From contig NZ_JGZI01000009.1 in the NCBI RefSeq assembly GCF_000741705.1, forward strand, positions 62,001 to 126,000: DNA of 64,000 nt. The letters run 5' to 3'. A model generated the notes under the pieces. That model was not told the DNA's origin and searched no databases. It saw nothing but the letters and a program-made list of their open reading frames with translations. This document shows, one piece after another, positions 56,203-64,000 of this stretch. This stretch comes from Bifidobacterium psychraerophilum. Lineage in GTDB: Bacteria > Actinomycetota > Actinomycetes > Actinomycetales > Bifidobacteriaceae. The translations under genes and the position numbers were made by a program. Position 1 is the first letter of the stretch. Every line of letters starts with the position of its first letter.

Positions 56203-58377
56203 CTATGAAGGCCGGACGGTGAGGACGTGGGCCACATCCGCCCAAGGGGCCAAAGACACGTAGTCATCCCCCGTCCAGCTGAAATCGCGTCCGCTCAATT
56301 CGTCATGCACATCGAGGCTCTGTCCGGGGTCGAATCCGAAATCGGCGGGATCGAAATGCACACCGGAGGAGTGGGCGTTATGGCCGTCGAGATTGACCAC
56401 GACGAAGAGGGTGTCGTCGCGGCCGTTCTCGGTGAAGTCGGCAGGGGTGTGCCTGGCGAAGGCGATGATGGAGGGGTCATCGGTACGCAGCACCGTGAGG
56501 TTGTGGTAGCCCTGGCAGCTGGGGTGTCTGCGACGGATATCGTTGAGGGTTGTGAGCAAAACCGATATGCCCAGCCGATCGGCGCTGGACCAATCGCGCA
56601 GCTTGATCTCGTACTTCTCATTGTCGATCTGTTCCTCGAATCCGGGTCGCTGCCGGTTCTCGATGAGTTCGTATCCGCTGTATATGCCCCAACTCGGTGA
56701 GCCCAGTGCCGCGAGGACCGCGCGTACCGCATGGCCGGCTATGCCGTTGTCGCGAAGATAATCGGTGAGGATATCCGGGGTGGTCGGCCAGAAGGAGTTG
56801 TGCTGGTAATACCCCATATCGCTATTGGTGAGTTCCAGATACTCCTGCAGCTCCTCCTTGGTGTTGCGCCAAGGGAAATAGCAGTGTGACTGGGTGAAGC
56901 CCACGTAGCTCAGCGCGAGCATCATGCCGGGACGTGTGAAGGCCTCCGCGAGGAAGAGGATCTCCGGGTGCCTTGCGGTTATGGTGGATATCACATCCTG
57001 CCAGAAGCGTACGGGTTTGGTATGCGGATTGTCGATGCGGAAGATCGTGACACCCGCGTCGATCCACAGCTCCAGAATCCGTATGACCTCGCGTTCGATG
57101 CCGGCCATATCCTTATCGAAATCGATCGGGTAGATGTCCTGGTATTTCTTCGGAGGGTTTTCGGCGAAGGCGATGCTGCCGTCCGCCTTGTGTCGGAACC
57201 AGTCGGGATGCTGCTTCACCCAGGGATGATCCGGGGAGCATTGCAGGGCGAAGTCCAAGGCGATTTCAAGGCCGAGGGCGTGGGCTGATCCGACAAAGGA
57301 ACGGAAATCATCCATGGTGCCGAGCTTCGGGTCCACAGTATCGTGGCCGCCGAGGGCCGAGCCGATGCCGAAGGGTGAACCGGGGTCGGTCGGCCCAGCG
57401 ATCAGGGCATTGTTGCGCCCTTTGCGGTTACTCCGACCGATGGGGAAGATCGGGGGAAGATAGACGATGTCGAAGCCTTCCTTCCTGGCCCGTTCAAGAC
57501 CTGCCGCGGCGGAGAGGAAATTGCCCTGCACGATCTGATGGCTGCGCGGATCCAGATAGGCTCCTTCGGAGCGTGGGAAGAACTGATACCAGGATGCGAA
57601 GCTCGACTTCGGACGTTGAACCCGGAACACCTTGGCTTGGCTTTCACTGATATGGTCCCTCAGGGGGTTGCTGTCATGCAGCCGGTGTATTTCCGGTGAA
57701 TCGGCGGCCGCGAATCGTTTCGCGATATCCACCGAAGGATCCGCGATATCTCGGGCAGCCTTCAACAACACCTTCTTCGCACGCGCACCGAGTCCTGCAT
57801 CAGCGTCCTCAGCCCAACGCGTGAGTATCGAAGCCCCCTCGTCGAGGGCGTTTGCGACGTCGTCATTGACCTGGACCTTGATCGCGGCGTCATGGAGCCA
57901 TAAGGCATAGCGGTCCTCCCATCCTTCGATGGTGACGGACCACAGGCCGAGTTGCCGTTTGACGGCGGCAAAAGCCTTATCCCAGGGCAATGCATCGCTG
58001 TGCTTGCCCGCCTGCAACCGCACGGACCATCTGTCGAGCCCGGCATTGACGCAGCTCATCGCACGACGTTGGACGACGCGGCCCTGCGGGTTGCGGAGCA
58101 CCGCGGTCGCACCCACCTTCATGCGACCTTCAATGAAAAGCTGAGCGCTGACGGTGATCGTCTCGCCTATCTCAACGCGGGCGGGGAAGGCATCGCCCTC
58201 CTGTGAGGGTGTGATGTCCAGAATCACGACACGTCCGAAGCGGACATCCACGGTGCTGTGTGCCGAGGCTTTCGGAGCATGGGCCTTCGTCTTCTTCGCG
58301 CGCGAAGAGCTCCTTGTTGATGTGCCGGATGAGTCGGGCTCGGCTGCGTGCGCCCCGCTGCGATGTGGTGCTGTCAT
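56203..58377 (-). CDS. glgE: Alpha-1,4-glucan:maltose-1-phosphate maltosyltransferase
   Basis: GH13 subfamily 3 enzyme that adds maltosyl units from maltose-1-phosphate to alpha-glucan. 724 aa: a disordered Ser/Lys N-terminus, DUF3416-like domain (RVVILDITPSQEGDAFPARVEIGE), then the barrel with YLPPIFPIG, GSALGGHDTVDPKLG, EIALDFALQCSPDHPWV, nucleophile D449 in IFRIDNPHTKP and acid/base E478 in LFLAEAFTRP. ATG 58377 lies six bases after a TACAAT box on the same strand, so the message is probably leaderless; a start at 58500 would cross that promoter. treS, mak and glgB are not in the window. Two palindromes overlap the promoter. Confidence 0.95.
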   Translation of the reverse strand: MTAPHRSGAHAAEPDSSGTSTRSSSRAKKTKAHAPKASAHSTVDVRFGRVVILDITPSQEGDAFPARVEIGETITVSAQLFIEGRMKVGATAVLRNPQGRVVQRRAMSCVNAGLDRWSVRLQAGKHSDALPWDKAFAAVKRQLGLWSVTIEGWEDRYALWLHDAAIKVQVNDDVANALDEGASILTRWAEDADAGLGARAKKVLLKAARDIADPSVDIAKRFAAADSPEIHRLHDSNPLRDHISESQAKVFRVQRPKSSFASWYQFFPRSEGAYLDPRSHQIVQGNFLSAAAGLERARKEGFDIVYLPPIFPIGRSNRKGRNNALIAGPTDPGSPFGIGSALGGHDTVDPKLGTMDDFRSFVGSAHALGLEIALDFALQCSPDHPWVKQHPDWFRHKADGSIAFAENPPKKYQDIYPIDFDKDMAGIEREVIRILELWIDAGVTIFRIDNPHTKPVRFWQDVISTITARHPEILFLAEAFTRPGMMLALSYVGFTQSHCYFPWRNTKEELQEYLELTNSDMGYYQHNSFWPTTPDILTDYLRDNGIAGHAVRAVLAALGSPSWGIYSGYELIENRQRPGFEEQIDNEKYEIKLRDWSSADRLGISVLLTTLNDIRRRHPSCQGYHNLTVLRTDDPSIIAFARHTPADFTENGRDDTLFVVVNLDGHNAHSSGVHFDPADFGFDPGQSLDVHDELSGRDFSWTGDDYVSLAPWADVAHVLTVRPS

Positions 58378-58408
58378 ACAACCATTGTATGAAGCAAACG
58401 AGCGTTTG
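58375..58408. promoter_or_regulatory. glgE promoter with two overlapping palindromes (candidate operators)
   Basis: On the - strand, GCGACA and TACAAT are spaced by 17 bases, with the glgE ATG six bases later. CATACAA-CCA-TTGTATG (58375-58391) covers the -10 and start codon, and CAAACG-AG-CGTTTG (58395-58408) fills the spacer. The second has the look of a LacI-family site. Confidence 0.55.
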
Positions 58409-58419
58409 TCGCCAACTCT

Positions 58420-58447
58420 TTGACTGCTTGTCCACTTTTTATATGAT
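58420..58447 (+). promoter_or_regulatory. Promoter of the LARTG surface-protein gene
   Basis: TTGACT (-35) and TATGAT (-10) with 16 bases between, back to back with the glgE promoter. It predicts a leader of about 98 nt. Confidence 0.7.
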
Positions 58448-58551
58448 CCCCGAAGTTCGACCACACCGGAAAGCCTTGTTGGGCGTAGGAATTCGAACAT
58501 GGAAATCTCTTAGCACCGCGGGCTGCGCGGACTGTCGCAAAGGAGAGAGTT

Positions 58552-60828
58552 ATGGGTATTCATGTCCATCGCCGAAGGGCGTTAAGCATCATATCGATGA
58601 TCTGCGTGTTCGCAGTGGCATTCGTGTTCGCGGCGTCATCGGCCGCCGATGTGGGTCTGTATCCGGTGGATCCAGCCAATACCGTGAGCTTCATGCATCA
58701 GGGTGTGACGTATCGGATCGGCCCCATGGCGGTTGACGGGCAGGGGAGGAAGGCATACTGCATGGAAACCGGCACACCCGACGAGCTGTGGTATGCGCAG
58801 GAGCTGCCGATTGAGGATTCGGAGCCGGCACGCTCCGTCGCCCATCTCGCCGGGGCTCTGCAGGATGATGACGATCCACTGAACCAGGCCGCGCTCGCGG
58901 TGCTGGTCCACGATCATCTGGACCTTCAGGCGGATGCCTGGAAGAGCCGGCGCAGCAGCCTGGGATCCGATCGCCCCGACGTGCTGGCGAGGGCCGAGCG
59001 TCTATGGGAGCAGGCGCGCGAGGAGACTCCGGTCGATGGGCGGCTTGGCGTGAGCTTCACCGAAGGCACGAGGAAGGGGGTCGTGAATGTCCGTGTCACC
59101 AACGCGGGAGGAGGGGCCGCTGTTGGTGTCCCCTTCACCCTGACCTTGAAAGGGCCGGCGGTGTTCACCGCCAATGGGAAGTCGACCATCCAAGGCACAT
59201 CCATCTCCGGCGGTATTGATCTGGAGTGGTCGGCAACGGGGGATGGGACGGTTGAGGCCAAACTGCACTATGAGATCACGGGAGCGCAGCATCTGATCAG
59301 TAGCCAGGACTATTTCAGGATTTCAGGGCCCCGTCAGGCCGAGGCCGTGGCGGAGGTCTTCCAAGTGCGGAAATCCTTCTCCCCGACCTTGTCCTCCGTG
59401 GTGCCCGACAAAGTCGTGAATCACGGCGCAGCCGTGCAGGACACCGTGATCTCGGGAACCAAGGCCGGGGATGTGTGGGCATCCGGGGTTGATGTGGAGG
59501 CGCAAGGTTATTACTTCGACGCGCTCACGCCACAGACCCTGGGCGAGGACTTCAGTGAGACCGGTGCATCCGGCACGGCTTATCTCGATGAGCTCAAGCG
59601 GGCCGGGCATACTCCCAACGCCTATGCTTCGGCTGTGTTCGGCCGCTCCGGCGAGTCGGTCACGGTCTCCGCCACCACAGATCGGGAAGGGACGCAGAAC
59701 TATGTGGCGCCGCTTTCGGGTGGCTTCGGGACCTGGGTATGGATCATAGCGGTGGACGGGCAGCCGAAGCAGACGAGGGAGTTTCTTCAGGAGGATGTCG
59801 TCACGCGTTTTCCGGAGCCCTCGGAAACGCTCTCCGCCAGGGCGATGGTGGCTGTCGATTCCACGGTGACGGAGCACTCCGCATCCGAGGGCAGCGTGAT
59901 CAGCGATACCATCAGCGTCTCGGGGTTCCCTGATGACCATGGCGTTTTCGCGGGGAATGCCGGTTTCGGCTTCGTTGCGGATGTGCCGATAGCCACGGTG
60001 AGCGTGGTGTGGTCCGGTGACGTGAATGATCAGGATAAGGATGCGTTGTACGAACCGCGGACCGTTGAGGTCCCCACAGAGGACGCCCATCATCGCGTCA
60101 TCGGGACCTGGGAGTATCCGGCACGTAACGGTGCGATCAAGGTCGGTGGAGGGGCTCCCGACGCGCATGGCGATCCGGTGAGTATCGTCGCCCAATCGCA
60201 CGGCTATTACGTGTTTGTGTACAGCTTCCCCGGTGACGATCGTGCCATGGCCGTCACCAGTGCCTATGACGATGCCTGGGAGAGGGTCAGGGTGGATCAA
60301 AGGCCACATGGTGCACAACCTTCACTGACCACGATGGTGAGCCCGATGCAGGTGGGCGTAGCGGATGCCTTCCACGACACGGCGTTGGTGAGAGGCAGCG
60401 TCGAAGAGGGATCCTATGTGACATTCAGCGCCTATGAAGCCCTTGAAGGCAGCGGGCTGCCATCACCGGCCGGTAGAAGGATCATGAATGAGGAGCGTGT
60501 GCCGCTCGATTACTCCCTGACGACGCAGACGGTCCGCAGTCCTGCCGCGAAGGCGCGGAAGGAGGGATCGGTGTTCTGGAAAGCCACGCTCTGGAACAAG
60601 GACGGCGACATCCTTGATGCGCATTACCTCGGCATTGATGGCGAGACGACGACGATAAGCTCCGATGAGCGTGCCGAAGGGGAGAGGGCCTCCTCGTCCG
60701 TCACGCAACCGGTGAAATCACTGGCGCGAACAGGGGTTGGTCTGCTGATCGCGCTCGCCATCGTGGTCTTGGTCGCTTCAGGAGTGGGGGCGCTTATGGT
60801 GGCGGCCATCAGGAGGAGGTCGGGTTGA
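58552..60828 (+). CDS. Secreted, sortase-anchored surface protein with possible thioester domain
   Basis: 758 aa: signal peptide (helix 11-30, likely cleavage after AASSAA), a large extracellular part, and a C-terminal sorting signal LARTG (724-728), hydrophobic helix and RRRSG tail. The mature chain has one cysteine, Cys70 in KAYCMETG, and Gln112 in LNQAALAVLVHD. A Y-C-hydrophobic segment followed ~40 residues later by a hydrophobic-Q-x-A block recalls thioester domains of Gram-positive adhesins, where Cys and Gln side chains bond. The middle (about 180-690) is beta-rich with Ser/Thr/Gly repeats and no family I can name. ATG has GGAGAGAG. I am sure of export and anchoring, less of the thioester. 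Confidence 0.75.
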   Translation: MGIHVHRRRALSIISMICVFAVAFVFAASSAADVGLYPVDPANTVSFMHQGVTYRIGPMAVDGQGRKAYCMETGTPDELWYAQELPIEDSEPARSVAHLAGALQDDDDPLNQAALAVLVHDHLDLQADAWKSRRSSLGSDRPDVLARAERLWEQAREETPVDGRLGVSFTEGTRKGVVNVRVTNAGGGAAVGVPFTLTLKGPAVFTANGKSTIQGTSISGGIDLEWSATGDGTVEAKLHYEITGAQHLISSQDYFRISGPRQAEAVAEVFQVRKSFSPTLSSVVPDKVVNHGAAVQDTVISGTKAGDVWASGVDVEAQGYYFDALTPQTLGEDFSETGASGTAYLDELKRAGHTPNAYASAVFGRSGESVTVSATTDREGTQNYVAPLSGGFGTWVWIIAVDGQPKQTREFLQEDVVTRFPEPSETLSARAMVAVDSTVTEHSASEGSVISDTISVSGFPDDHGVFAGNAGFGFVADVPIATVSVVWSGDVNDQDKDALYEPRTVEVPTEDAHHRVIGTWEYPARNGAIKVGGGAPDAHGDPVSIVAQSHGYYVFVYSFPGDDRAMAVTSAYDDAWERVRVDQRPHGAQPSLTTMVSPMQVGVADAFHDTALVRGSVEEGSYVTFSAYEALEGSGLPSPAGRRIMNEERVPLDYSLTTQTVRSPAAKARKEGSVFWKATLWNKDGDILDAHYLGIDGETTTISSDERAEGERASSSVTQPVKSLARTGVGLLIALAIVVLVASGVGALMVAAIRRRSG

Positions 60829-61027: not shown

Positions 61028-64000
61028 CTAGCGGTGCTTCAACTGGCGGATTCGATACGATATGCCCGCCGCGATGACAAGCAGCAGGACGACCGCCAGA
61101 ATCGATCCGACGCTCACGCCGCTTCGTGCCAGCACTCCTGTCTTCACCTGCGACTGTGCGGTGTCGGACTGTCCGCTGCCGGACTGCGCATTCGCATGTG
61201 AACCGCCGCCTGATCCCGTCCCCTTCGAGGACGGATCGTCACTCGGCTGCGGTGTATCCGAGTCCTGCAGATACAGGAAGGGGAGCACGACCTGTGACTT
61301 GTCGAGGCTCATCAGCTTGGCCTGGCTTTGCTTCCCGGAGAACACGTCGATGGCATTGCTGTCCGTGGTGATGCTGTCATGTGCCGCATTGTCCGCCACG
61401 ACGCCGAGGCCCCCGCCAAAGCGGTATTGCTGGACGAAGCTTCCGCATGATTCTTGCCCGTCCCAGCACGCCTTGCTGTAGACAGGCCTTACATTGCCGA
61501 TGCCTTCCGAATCTTCAGCGCTGCTGAACATCGCAATCTGGTATCCCGCCTTGCTCAGATCGATGCCCGCCAAGGAACTGGCCGGAAGGGAAGCGACGAT
61601 CGCATTGCCTTGCACGACGCTCACACTCACGTCCGCGGACTTTTCGGGGGCCGATCCGGGATTGTACACGCCGCTCTCATAGCGGGAGCCGTTGTTGCGT
61701 CCATCCACCACGATCGCTTTCTGCCAGGCACCCTGGGTGAAGGTGTTCGTGCCGGGAAGCTCGGCTGTGGCGGTCGAAGCGGAACGGGCATTCGCCTTGG
61801 CGGCAGCGCGCAGATAGATGTTCAGCCTTTGGGTGCTCATGCCGTTGCCTCCCCATGCGTTGGAGATGGCACCGTCAACTGTGGTCACGAAACGCACCGT
61901 ATCCCCGTCGCGATAGATGGAGAAGGAACGCAGATCGAAACTTCCTTTGCTGAAGGCCCCGTTGCTTGGATACACATAGCTGCCCGGGCCGTTGTCGTCA
62001 CCCTTGGGGTCGCTGAGACTTCCGGTCAGACTGCCGAAGGCATAGACGGTGTAACGCTTGACCGTCATCACCCCGTTGCTGCCGACCGCTGTGATGCGCA
62101 CGGTGTTGGAGACTTCCGGGAGTGTGATCGCAGTGCTGAATTTCCCTTCTCCAAGGGTTACGGGCACATCCTCGCCGTTGTTCACCGAAATGCGCACGCT
62201 GGCGGCATCGCTCTCACCGGATACGGGAAGTTTGCGTTGCTCCGCCGTCTCCCCGTCGGTGACGCCGGTGACGGAGAGCTCCGGTGCCTGCCCCTGGGGT
62301 TCATCATCGGCGGTGGCGTCCCAGTTGTCCCAGAGCGCGGCGTCGAAGTTCAGGCGTCCGAGTTCCTGGGAGGCCCAATTGTCTCCGGATTTGGTGATCG
62401 AAGTGTTGCCGACCGTGTAGTTGTGGAGCAGCAGACCGCTGTTCTCCGTGGTCTGGTTTCCGATGGTGACGGATTTGCCGGTGCTGTCGGTGAAGGCCTT
62501 GAAGAAGTTCTGTTGAGCGTCGACGCTGAGCTTGTTCCAGGCATCCACATGCAGCCCATCGATGCGGATGTTCTTCGTGTTCTGCATCGAATATATTCGT
62601 GCCACGCAGTTGACCATGCCTTCAACATTGGTATTGGTGAAGGTCATGTTCTGGAAGGTTTTCGAGGTGTCGGCCAGATTCGTCGCCCCCATGTCCAGAT
62701 ATGAGGAGGAGGAGTTGAAGACGCAGGTGTTGTACTTCTGATCGTTCCAATACATGCGGTTGTGGATGATGTCGGTGTCTGCGACGGATACCTTGTCGAC
62801 ATCGCGGGAAGCCCATCCCCATTGGAATACCGGTCCGTTCTCGTTCTTCCAGATCACGTTGTTATTCACCGTGACGTTGGAATGGTAGAGCTTGATCACA
62901 TCATCATTGGAATGGAAGAAGGAGTTGCTCAGTGTGCTGCCCTTGTACATCTCCAGGCCGTCGGTCTGCCAGTACCAGCCACCGATCTGCTGGTAGTTGT
63001 TGACCGTCATGGCGAAGGGGCCATCCTCGTCACCGTACATGACGAAGGTGTGATAGGGAGGGTTGGCCACGGTGACGCCTTGCAGATCCAGGGTCTGAGG
63101 AGTTCCTGAGGACTCGAATTGGAGCATTTTCACACATGAGCTGTGGCAGTCGGATTTGTTCGGGTCAAGGTGCTTGTAGCCGTTTTCGGTATCCGCCTCA
63201 TACACGTACTGTTCCCCGGAGAGGACACCATACCCGGTGACCTTGAAACTCGCGGTATCCGAGAGGAATTCGAATGCACCCTTGACGTAGGCCCCGGGAG
63301 CGAGATAGACCCACTTGATGTTCGCCGGCAGTTGAGCACGGTATTGTGAGCCCATCCAATAGGTTCCCGGACCGAAATAGAGTGTGTCGATGTTTTCGTC
63401 GATGCTATCGAGGTCGTTGACCGCGCCGGTGCTGATTTGCTTGACGTTCGAAGCGTCCTTGTCCGGAATATGCTCGCTGGCCTTGCTGCCGGTGAGCATC
63501 GGCTGTGCGAATACGAGCATCGCGTTGCGTGGTTCGGTGCTGACCGCCATGCCGCTGGACGGGTCGGTGGTCAGGGCGCCTGAGCCTCCGGAATTATCGT
63601 TGTATGAGGTGAAGAGCTGCGGTTCGAATTCCACCGAGAAGCGGTATCCCGCATCGCTGTACGGAACGCTGATACGAACGGTGTGATCGTTGATCAGGGT
63701 CTTCTTGAAGTTGTCGCTGGTCGGGCGGATGGTCACCTGATCGGGTGACGTGATGCTCTGCCCAGTATCTAGGCTGACATCGACCTGGGCATCGGCCGAG
63801 TACTCGAATGTCGACCATGACATCGACAGATTGCTGTCCGCGGCGAATTCGGCGCCGTCCTGCTCCGTGTACCCGACTTTACCGTTGCCACTGCGCGGGA
63901 GACTGATGTAGGTGAATGATTTGTATGACGTCTGCTCATCTCCCGACTGGGAGACCGAGGTCGAGTAGTACGGTGATTCGCGGACCGTACCGTCCGCAAT
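61028..64000 (-). CDS. Cell-wall-anchored GH49 enzyme (dextranase/isopullulanase type), 5' end outside the window
   Basis: The frame is open to the end of the window, so the N-terminus is missing. Counting from the internal Met at 63823, a right-handed beta-helix follows an Ig-like domain. WYWQTDGLEMY and FFHSNDDVIKLY place Asp at 288, 307 and 308; the 19/20-residue spacing equals that of the catalytic Asp trio of GH49 dextranase. FQWGWASRDVDKVSV is another GH49 signature. C-terminal to it lie an Ig-like stretch and a glucodextranase-C/DOMON-like domain (GSYVYPSNGAFSKGSFDLRSFSIYRDGD). It ends in a Ser/Gly linker, LARSG, a helix and a basic tail. Probable substrate is extracellular dextran or pullulan; I cannot choose from sequence. 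Confidence 0.85.
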   Translation of the reverse strand: MADGTVRESPYYSTSVSQSGDEQTSYKSFTYISLPRSGNGKVGYTEQDGAEFAADSNLSMSWSTFEYSADAQVDVSLDTGQSITSPDQVTIRPTSDNFKKTLINDHTVRISVPYSDAGYRFSVEFEPQLFTSYNDNSGGSGALTTDPSSGMAVSTEPRNAMLVFAQPMLTGSKASEHIPDKDASNVKQISTGAVNDLDSIDENIDTLYFGPGTYWMGSQYRAQLPANIKWVYLAPGAYVKGAFEFLSDTASFKVTGYGVLSGEQYVYEADTENGYKHLDPNKSDCHSSCVKMLQFESSGTPQTLDLQGVTVANPPYHTFVMYGDEDGPFAMTVNNYQQIGGWYWQTDGLEMYKGSTLSNSFFHSNDDVIKLYHSNVTVNNNVIWKNENGPVFQWGWASRDVDKVSVADTDIIHNRMYWNDQKYNTCVFNSSSSYLDMGATNLADTSKTFQNMTFTNTNVEGMVNCVARIYSMQNTKNIRIDGLHVDAWNKLSVDAQQNFFKAFTDSTGKSVTIGNQTTENSGLLLHNYTVGNTSITKSGDNWASQELGRLNFDAALWDNWDATADDEPQGQAPELSVTGVTDGETAEQRKLPVSGESDAASVRISVNNGEDVPVTLGEGKFSTAITLPEVSNTVRITAVGSNGVMTVKRYTVYAFGSLTGSLSDPKGDDNGPGSYVYPSNGAFSKGSFDLRSFSIYRDGDTVRFVTTVDGAISNAWGGNGMSTQRLNIYLRAAAKANARSASTATAELPGTNTFTQGAWQKAIVVDGRNNGSRYESGVYNPGSAPEKSADVSVSVVQGNAIVASLPASSLAGIDLSKAGYQIAMFSSAEDSEGIGNVRPVYSKACWDGQESCGSFVQQYRFGGGLGVVADNAAHDSITTDSNAIDVFSGKQSQAKLMSLDKSQVVLPFLYLQDSDTPQPSDDPSSKGTGSGGGSHANAQSGSGQSDTAQSQVKTGVLARSGVSVGSILAVVLLLVIAAGISYRIRQLKHR

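Follow-up and report, generated by a model that had tools for sequence, protein, structure and literature searches.

The window analysed here is a stretch of 64,000 nucleotides from Bifidobacterium psychraerophilum, corresponding to positions 62001-126000 of contig C9 in a 2.6 Mb genome (labelled G000). At its right-hand edge it carries most of a gene for a large protein of glycoside hydrolase family 49 (GH49), the subject of this report. The complete gene, read from the genome contig, is an open reading frame (ORF) of 1072 residues at L002:5029-8247 on the minus strand, where L002 is the stretch spanning the window edge and a window coordinate equals the L002 coordinate plus 55999. A genome search returned this GH49 gene in a single copy. 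The N-terminus of the protein has a signal-peptide-like stretch, judged by eye to end at APASA-AEN, and the match to the N-terminal domain profile PF17433 begins at residue 60, outside the window. Genes for a LacI-type regulator, an importer and two further glycoside hydrolases lie past the window edge (Table 1). The protein most likely acts at the cell surface as an endo-dextranase, opening up dextran so that an importer can take in isomalto-oligosaccharides.

The assignment to GH49 made in the original prediction is borne out by several comparisons. Profiles of the family score well above their curated cut-offs (PF17433, 234.5 bits against 21.3; PF03718, 104.6 against 27), while NCBIfam gave no match to the whole protein up to an expectation value (E) of 0.001. 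The closest solved protein is the dextranase AoDex (6nzs, 770 bits), followed at lower scores by isopullulanase (297 and 296 bits), Dex49A (285 bits) and, over the C-terminal part, the glucodextranase 1ug9 (215 bits). The three catalytic Asp residues, D429, D448 and D449, have the spacing of 19 and 20 that the original prediction had described; their columns are identical in 14 of 14 aligned rows, of which the window protein is one, and the three solved enzymes AoDex, Dex49A and isopullulanase have the same residues. A full-length structure was predicted from 13 sequences, with a mean predicted local distance difference test score (pLDDT) of 70.4. The model is good across most of the catalytic part and poor across much of the C module and linker, and for this reason only the catalytic part was relied on. 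An immunoglobulin (Ig)-like N-terminal domain and a right-handed beta-helix are matched to 6nzs by the model (Z 52.4, root-mean-square deviation 1.8, 585 aligned residues), with lower scores for 1wmr (Z 46.3), 1ogm (44.1) and 1ug9 (20.6); these values come from a re-comparison of the ranking given by Foldseek. A pectinase-type (GH28) or other beta-helix family was considered and rejected, as no such Pfam match appears up to E 1 and polygalacturonases reach at most Z 19.0. By sequence and fold comparison the window protein is thus a GH49 enzyme with an intact Asp triad, and the additional modules previously noted are real, with parts resembling glucodextranase B and C.

Table 1. Features of the GH49 gene and of the adjoining genes past the window edge (window coordinates unless L002 is given; residue numbers are those of the complete protein)
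Feature	Position	Strand	Basis or remark
GH49 protein, C-terminal 990 residues and stop	61028..64000	-	frame open to window edge
GH49 gene start	beyond window edge, L002:8247 (64246 on the window scale)	-	
N-terminal Ig-like domain, in-window part, residues 84-250	63497..63997	-	PF17433, E 9.3e-70
Beta-helix catalytic domain, residues 251-650	62297..63496	-	PF03718, E 4.1e-30; PF18783, E 7.3e-11
Pfam Glyco_hydro_49 match, residues 522-644	62315-62683	-	
Catalytic Asp D429 (AoDex D420, Dex49A D376)	62960..62962	-	alignment; role from passages of PMC6723167
Catalytic Asp D448, D449 (AoDex D439, D440; Dex49A D395, D396)	62900..62905	-	alignment; passages of PMC6723167
Glucodextranase B-like module, residues 655-735	62042..62284	-	PF09136 Glucodextran_B, E 1.6e-7
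Glucodextranase C-like module, residues 744-926	61469..62017	-	PF09985 Glucodextran_C, E 4.8e-33; 1ug9, 215 bits over C-terminal part
Ser/Gly-rich stretch of low complexity preceding the sorting motif, residues 1000-1038	61133..61249	-	sequence; low model confidence
Putative sorting motif LARSG, residues 1039-1043	61118..61132	-	sequence
Hydrophobic stretch and basic tail, residues 1044-1072	61031..61117	-	sequence; model helix 1053-1078 in P0001 numbering
LacI-type regulator	L002:8541-9554	-	
Lipoprotein solute-binding protein	L002:9721-11391	+	lipobox LSAC
GH13	L002:11541-13361		
Permease 1	L002:13282-14334		
Permease 2	L002:14347-15318		
GH31	L002:15497-18022		
DUF624 protein	L002:18189-18890		

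By gene order and families, a predicted extracellular dextranase, an uptake system, a predicted intracellular alpha-1,6-glucosidase and a regulator adjoin one another, and the region looks like a dextran-utilisation locus. The solute-binding protein gave no match in Pfam or NCBIfam and was recognised through its solved relatives 3omb (410 bits) and 6fth (384 bits). For the GH13 protein the nearest solved relatives are oligo-1,6-glucosidases and dextran glucosidases (1uok, 553 bits; 2zic, 496 bits), and the nucleophile Asp (GFRMDVI) is followed by Val in all 14 rows checked, three of them being second copies of the same contig. A Val at this position is a mark of alpha-1,6 preference. For the GH31 protein the closest solved relative is 7wj9 (661 bits, with the next different protein at 145). 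This entry is mentioned once in PMC9061262, a paper on the enzyme LlGH31_u1, which according to passages of that paper prefers nigerose, the kcat/Km values for kojibiose and maltose being 13% and 2.1% of the nigerose value. In LlGH31_u1 numbering, the nucleophile (341), D394, Q343 and H427 are conserved in seven of seven GH31 rows, and position 99 is Tyr in the window genome, Phe in five rows and His in one. The closest relatives and residues of the GH13 and GH31 proteins make alpha-1,3-branched isomalto-oligosaccharides the likely cargo of the importer, and the substrate of the locus is probably alpha-1,3-branched dextran.

We consider it likely that the window protein is a cell-surface GH49 endo-dextranase, placed furthest out among the enzymes of a locus for branched-dextran utilisation. 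In the mechanism that we propose, the signal peptide would export the protein and a class E sortase, or else its own C-terminal membrane segment, would keep it at the surface, where the beta-helix would cleave alpha-1,6 linkages in dextran that other microbes produce and the B and C modules may hold the polymer or space the enzyme from the wall. The lipoprotein would then catch isomalto-oligosaccharides for import by the two permeases; inside the cell the GH13 enzyme would take off alpha-1,6-linked glucose and the GH31 enzyme alpha-1,3-linked branch glucose, with the LacI-type regulator governing both promoters. Sequence shows the family, the triad, the modules, the tail, the neighbouring genes, the co-occurrence described below and a shared short palindrome; activity, endo mode, substrate, anchoring, the role of the modules and regulation are inferred. 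The importer cluster just past the window edge lends support to the suggestion in the original prediction that glucan breakdown products are taken up directly. Dextran synthesis by the organism itself was also considered and set aside, with no GH70 match in the genome in a search whose control was weak (one genome, below cut-off).

The name dextranase/isopullulanase originally given to the protein holds as to the family, and sequence comparison favours the first of the two activities. Identity to AoDex is 57.3% over 579 positions, compared with 36.8% over 514 positions for isopullulanase and 35.1% over 542 for Dex49A, the solved enzymes being compared over matched stretches only, which for isopullulanase do not cover two Trp near the end. 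Passages of PMC6723167 list 14 residues conserved among GH49 dextranases from bacteria and fungi, of which 12 are the same in the window protein as in AoDex; Y516 is the same as in Dex49A and G564 the same as in none. Asn470 is kept as in both dextranases, with Val at this position in isopullulanase. Some results point the other way. The Gly at position 564 replaces AoDex Asn555, which is Asn in all three solved enzymes; the isopullulanase solenoid repeat (IPU_b_solenoid) scores above its cut-off (42.3 bits versus 30.2) and the dextranase solenoid repeat below (21.8 versus 30). In a tree of 74 catalytic-domain rows, the two fungal proteins, isopullulanase and Dex49A, separate from the 72 bacterial ones (100/100); as this pair holds both activities, the tree does not separate dextranase from isopullulanase, and position in it leaves specificity unfixed. 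One could imagine a surface isopullulanase that supplies the same importer by converting pullulan to isopanose: isopullulanases belong to GH49, and the solenoid profile and the fold match to 1wmr both agree with such an activity. We regard this as very unlikely, given the lower identity to isopullulanase, the Asn in place of its Val, and the better fit of dextran to a locus whose GH13 protein is closest to oligo-1,6-glucosidases and whose GH31 protein is closest to an alpha-1,3- and not an alpha-1,4-glucosidase.

A related question concerns the mode of cutting. An exo-acting dextranase of the isomaltotriose-releasing type could serve the same locus in place of an endo-dextranase; exo-acting enzymes exist within GH49 according to passages of PMC10316084, and cutting mode cannot be fixed by similarity of sequence alone. 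The closest characterised enzyme, AoDex (DexKQ), has isomalto-oligosaccharides as its main end products in passages of PMC6723167, which argues for the endo mode in a comparison that contained no exo-type GH49 sequence. An exo-acting enzyme seems quite improbable to us.

The GH49 protein appears to reside at the cell surface. Its tail, already noticed in the original prediction, has the complete layout of a class E sortase substrate, with a motif, a hydrophobic stretch and a basic tail. The LAXTG motif is reported to be read by class E sortases (passages of PMC5148588), and a class E sortase of B. bifidum has been proposed to anchor glycoside hydrolases through the presumed signal [L/I/V][S/A/P]XTG (passages of PMC8603203). 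The motif of the window protein, LARSG, is a variant with Ser at the position of Thr, which weighs against a wall link. Relatives have LASTG, LAHTG, LAKTG, LANTG and LPATG at the same place, and Ser also occurs in the motifs of two Actinomyces GH49 proteins (LPVSG and LAASG). The genome contains two sortases, one of class E (NF033747, 258.9 bits with a cut-off of 160) and one of class C (231 bits). The class C gene (L107:17-2055, contig C9 near 312904) adjoins an ORF with LARTG near its end and probably belongs to a pilus locus.

We surveyed 71 GH49 ORFs for such signals, after removal of five duplicate loci and counting only ORFs with more than 350 aligned residues, which leaves out a split gene of B. 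bombi. Of the 71, 10 have an L[PA]x[TSA]G motif close to their C-terminus and 27 a C module, with all 10 motif-bearing ORFs among the 27. Six of the 10 belong to Bifidobacteriaceae; the other four come from Herbiconiux, Mycetocola and two Actinomyces, one of which is ended by its contig. Among the 13 Bifidobacteriaceae rows, the motif is present in 6 and absent from 5, the remaining 2 being cut before their end (the row of L040 and the third copy in L036). This patchy occurrence and the Ser of LARSG would suit a protein of the same kind and locus that has no wall link and is either held in the membrane by its C-terminal segment or shed. The complete tail layout, the Thr-containing motifs of relatives, the Ser-containing motifs in Actinomyces and the presence of a class E sortase gene speak against it, and we judge it unlikely; it is compatible with the remaining steps of the proposed mechanism and does not exclude them.

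Regulation was approached through the promoters. A strict CG-centred 16-base palindrome has few matches, and a looser core, TTNCGNAA, occurs in 11 of 13 promoter segments from seven loci, either upstream of GH49 or between the genes for LacI and the binding protein; in the window genome the sites are at L002:8349 and 9644. Dinucleotide shuffles gave a mean of 1.15 and a maximum of 6 segments, and 0 of 500 reached 11, although this control is optimistic because the core was chosen from those matches. In ten later loci the core was seen by eye upstream of the binding-protein gene in seven, and not in L148, L154 and L155. Two considerations reduce the weight of the palindrome: the looser core was picked from earlier matches and then counted, and the longer form is unenriched genome-wide, with 13 matches versus 14 for the reversed control. 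The core is also found within genes: the 19 kb of L002 contain 9 sites, of which two fall in promoters. Because the motif was picked post hoc and the loci are related, we treat the shared short palindrome as a lead only, one that may correspond to the operator of the LacI-type regulator.

The original prediction placed the gene in a bifidobacterial core region, which is wrong for GH49: the gene is accessory. Within the genus 5 of 27 genomes have it, the window genome among them, and across the family 12 of 189, including one in which the gene is split. A binding protein of at least 58% identity is present in 17 of the 189 genomes, comprising 10 of the 12 with GH49 compared with 7 of the 177 others (p = 9e-11 by Fisher's exact test, uncorrected for kinship). 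In two genomes (G185 and G186) the binding protein, although 74% identical, is encoded a long way from GH49. The association is weakened by the fact that the 58% cut was placed at a gap after the list had been inspected, by the 58 of 189 genomes that have a binding protein when weaker relatives (at most 50%) are counted, and by two of the 12 GH49 genomes, G023 and G135, that have no close binding protein, G135 being an assembly of 360 contigs. Among 297 genomes drawn evenly from the order, 8 match the whole-protein query; the window genome and G412 cover the catalytic part, and the other six match modules or tail only. Named genomes were scanned as well and contributed 62 loci, of which six lie on contigs that are also among the genomes above. 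Here a close importer, defined by a binding protein of at least 57% identity and both permeases above 70%, lies beside GH49 in Actinomyces succiniciruminis, A. ruminicola, Trueperella pyogenes, Actinomyces sp. ph3 and Arthrobacter sp. MYb23. The shared locus and the co-occurrence with an importer and two intracellular glucosidases also bear on the idea that the enzyme serves to loosen the glucan biofilm of competitors, with feeding secondary. Dextranases are generally known to disperse glucan biofilms (see also PMC5852479), but with such partners we find this purpose highly improbable for the predicted endo-dextranase.

The importer also occurs apart from GH49. Stretches around the binding protein in seven importer-only genomes contain both permeases in all seven, LacI in six, GH13 in six and GH31 in five; these clusters, L147 to L153 (G120, G062, G070, G118, G119, G005 and G030), have no GH49 match. 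It is possible that such genomes belong to users of fragments freed by others.

In the tree, AoDex is placed among Micrococcaceae, and the window protein falls in a group of eight Bifidobacteriaceae rows (100/99). The sister of this group consists of six Actinomycetaceae rows and the remaining five bifidobacterial rows, with support of 97/100 for all 19; several terminal branches are long. The protein of G023, a genome of the same genus, groups with those of B. mongoliense and G135 (100/99) and not with the others of its genus, a placement suggestive of transfer or uneven loss. The mode of holding GH49 appears to differ by lineage as well, through a predicted C-terminal sorting signal, through an N-terminal hydrophobic segment with a long linker, or with no evident anchor. 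These patterns lead us to speculate, tentatively and with more doubt than conviction, about a two-tier economy of branched dextran in Bifidobacteriaceae, in which species with surface GH49, the importer and an alpha-1,3-debranching GH31 would coexist with importer-only users of fragments, and lineage-specific holding would set the leakage of products to the latter. The setting would perhaps be insect guts, where lactic acid bacteria turn sucrose into dextran; glucan makers (Apilactobacillus) inhabit bee guts according to passages of PMC9147854. A bee habitat for the organism of the window is a guess.

Individual loci of the family show further variation. Alloscardovia theropitheci (G035; L036:2110-20000 and L037) has three GH49 genes on one contig. 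In two of them, which lack a C-terminal motif, an N-terminal hydrophobic segment lies some 190 residues ahead of the catalytic domain; the third is cut by the end of the stretch. Bifidobacterium bombi DSM 19703 (G052; L038:8612-10364) has GH49 split across three short ORFs, by sequencing error or decay, beside LacI, binding-protein, GH13 and permease genes that look whole. In B. polysaccharolyticum W8117 (G023; L033:12975-15017), a bee-gut species, the 680-residue GH49 protein, its start cut by the contig end, has an N-terminal hydrophobic segment, lacks the B and C modules and the C-terminal motif, and is encoded away from importer genes.

Two other genes of the window lie near the GH49 gene. 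One (58552-60828, plus strand) encodes a secreted protein of 758 residues that ends in LARTG, a hydrophobic stretch and a basic tail and has no Pfam or NCBIfam match above cut-off; a relative of 48% identity stands at the same place in G016 (L031), and none in the stretch from G024 (L034). The other (56203-58500, minus strand) encodes a GlgE-like maltosyltransferase (PF11896, PF21702), and in three genomes of the genus (G000, G016 and G024) GH49 has a GlgE-like gene close by.

The gene cluster suggests a route by which bifidobacteria could feed on branched dextran from other microbes. Many lactic acid bacteria produce dextran and branched dextrans, which are under study as prebiotics, and the complete-looking gene set offers a testable route for attack on dextran from the bifidobacterial surface, with importer-only relatives allowing a test of whether surface holding limits the sharing of products. 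GH49 has been reported in B. castoris (passages of PMC9723756) and as more likely in B. pseudolongum (count 8/786; passages of PMC8535030), and no description of the GH49 locus was found in the titles, abstract openings and passages of open-licence literature that were searched. Every component is of a kind already known, from the enzyme family and its modules to the sorting-type tail and the type of locus, and this is not a new system.

Among known proteins, AoDex of Arthrobacter oxydans KQ11 shares the N-terminal and catalytic domains, the triad and the 12 of 14 listed residues, but its chain in 6nzs (587 residues) stops at the catalytic domain and has neither B and C modules nor a sorting tail. 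The isopullulanase of Aspergillus niger (1wmr, 3wwg) has the fold and triad in common and differs in its lower identity and the Val at the position of N470. The glucodextranase of Arthrobacter globiformis I42 (1ug9) shares the B and C modules (PF09136, PF09985), whereas its catalytic domain is a different one, of family GH15. The same layout with a C module and sorting-type tail is seen in GH49 proteins of Herbiconiux, Mycetocola, Actinomyces provencensis and A. polynesiensis (the last row ended by its contig), for which the close importer was unmatched at the usual identity in the fetched stretches, some of them short. The closest solved relative of the GH31 protein, LlGH31_u1 of Lactococcus lactis (7wj9), has the Asp pair, Q343, H427 and Y99 in common with it, the nigerose specificity of the locus enzyme being predicted only. 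As a system, FjDexUL of Flavobacterium johnsoniae (passages of PMC10316084) works alike, with a dextranase outside the cell, uptake of oligosaccharides and debranching glucosidases; it differs in using SusC/D uptake and GH66, GH31, GH97 and GH65 enzymes, with GH49 absent from the eight-gene list given in those passages, and as loci the two are unrelated.

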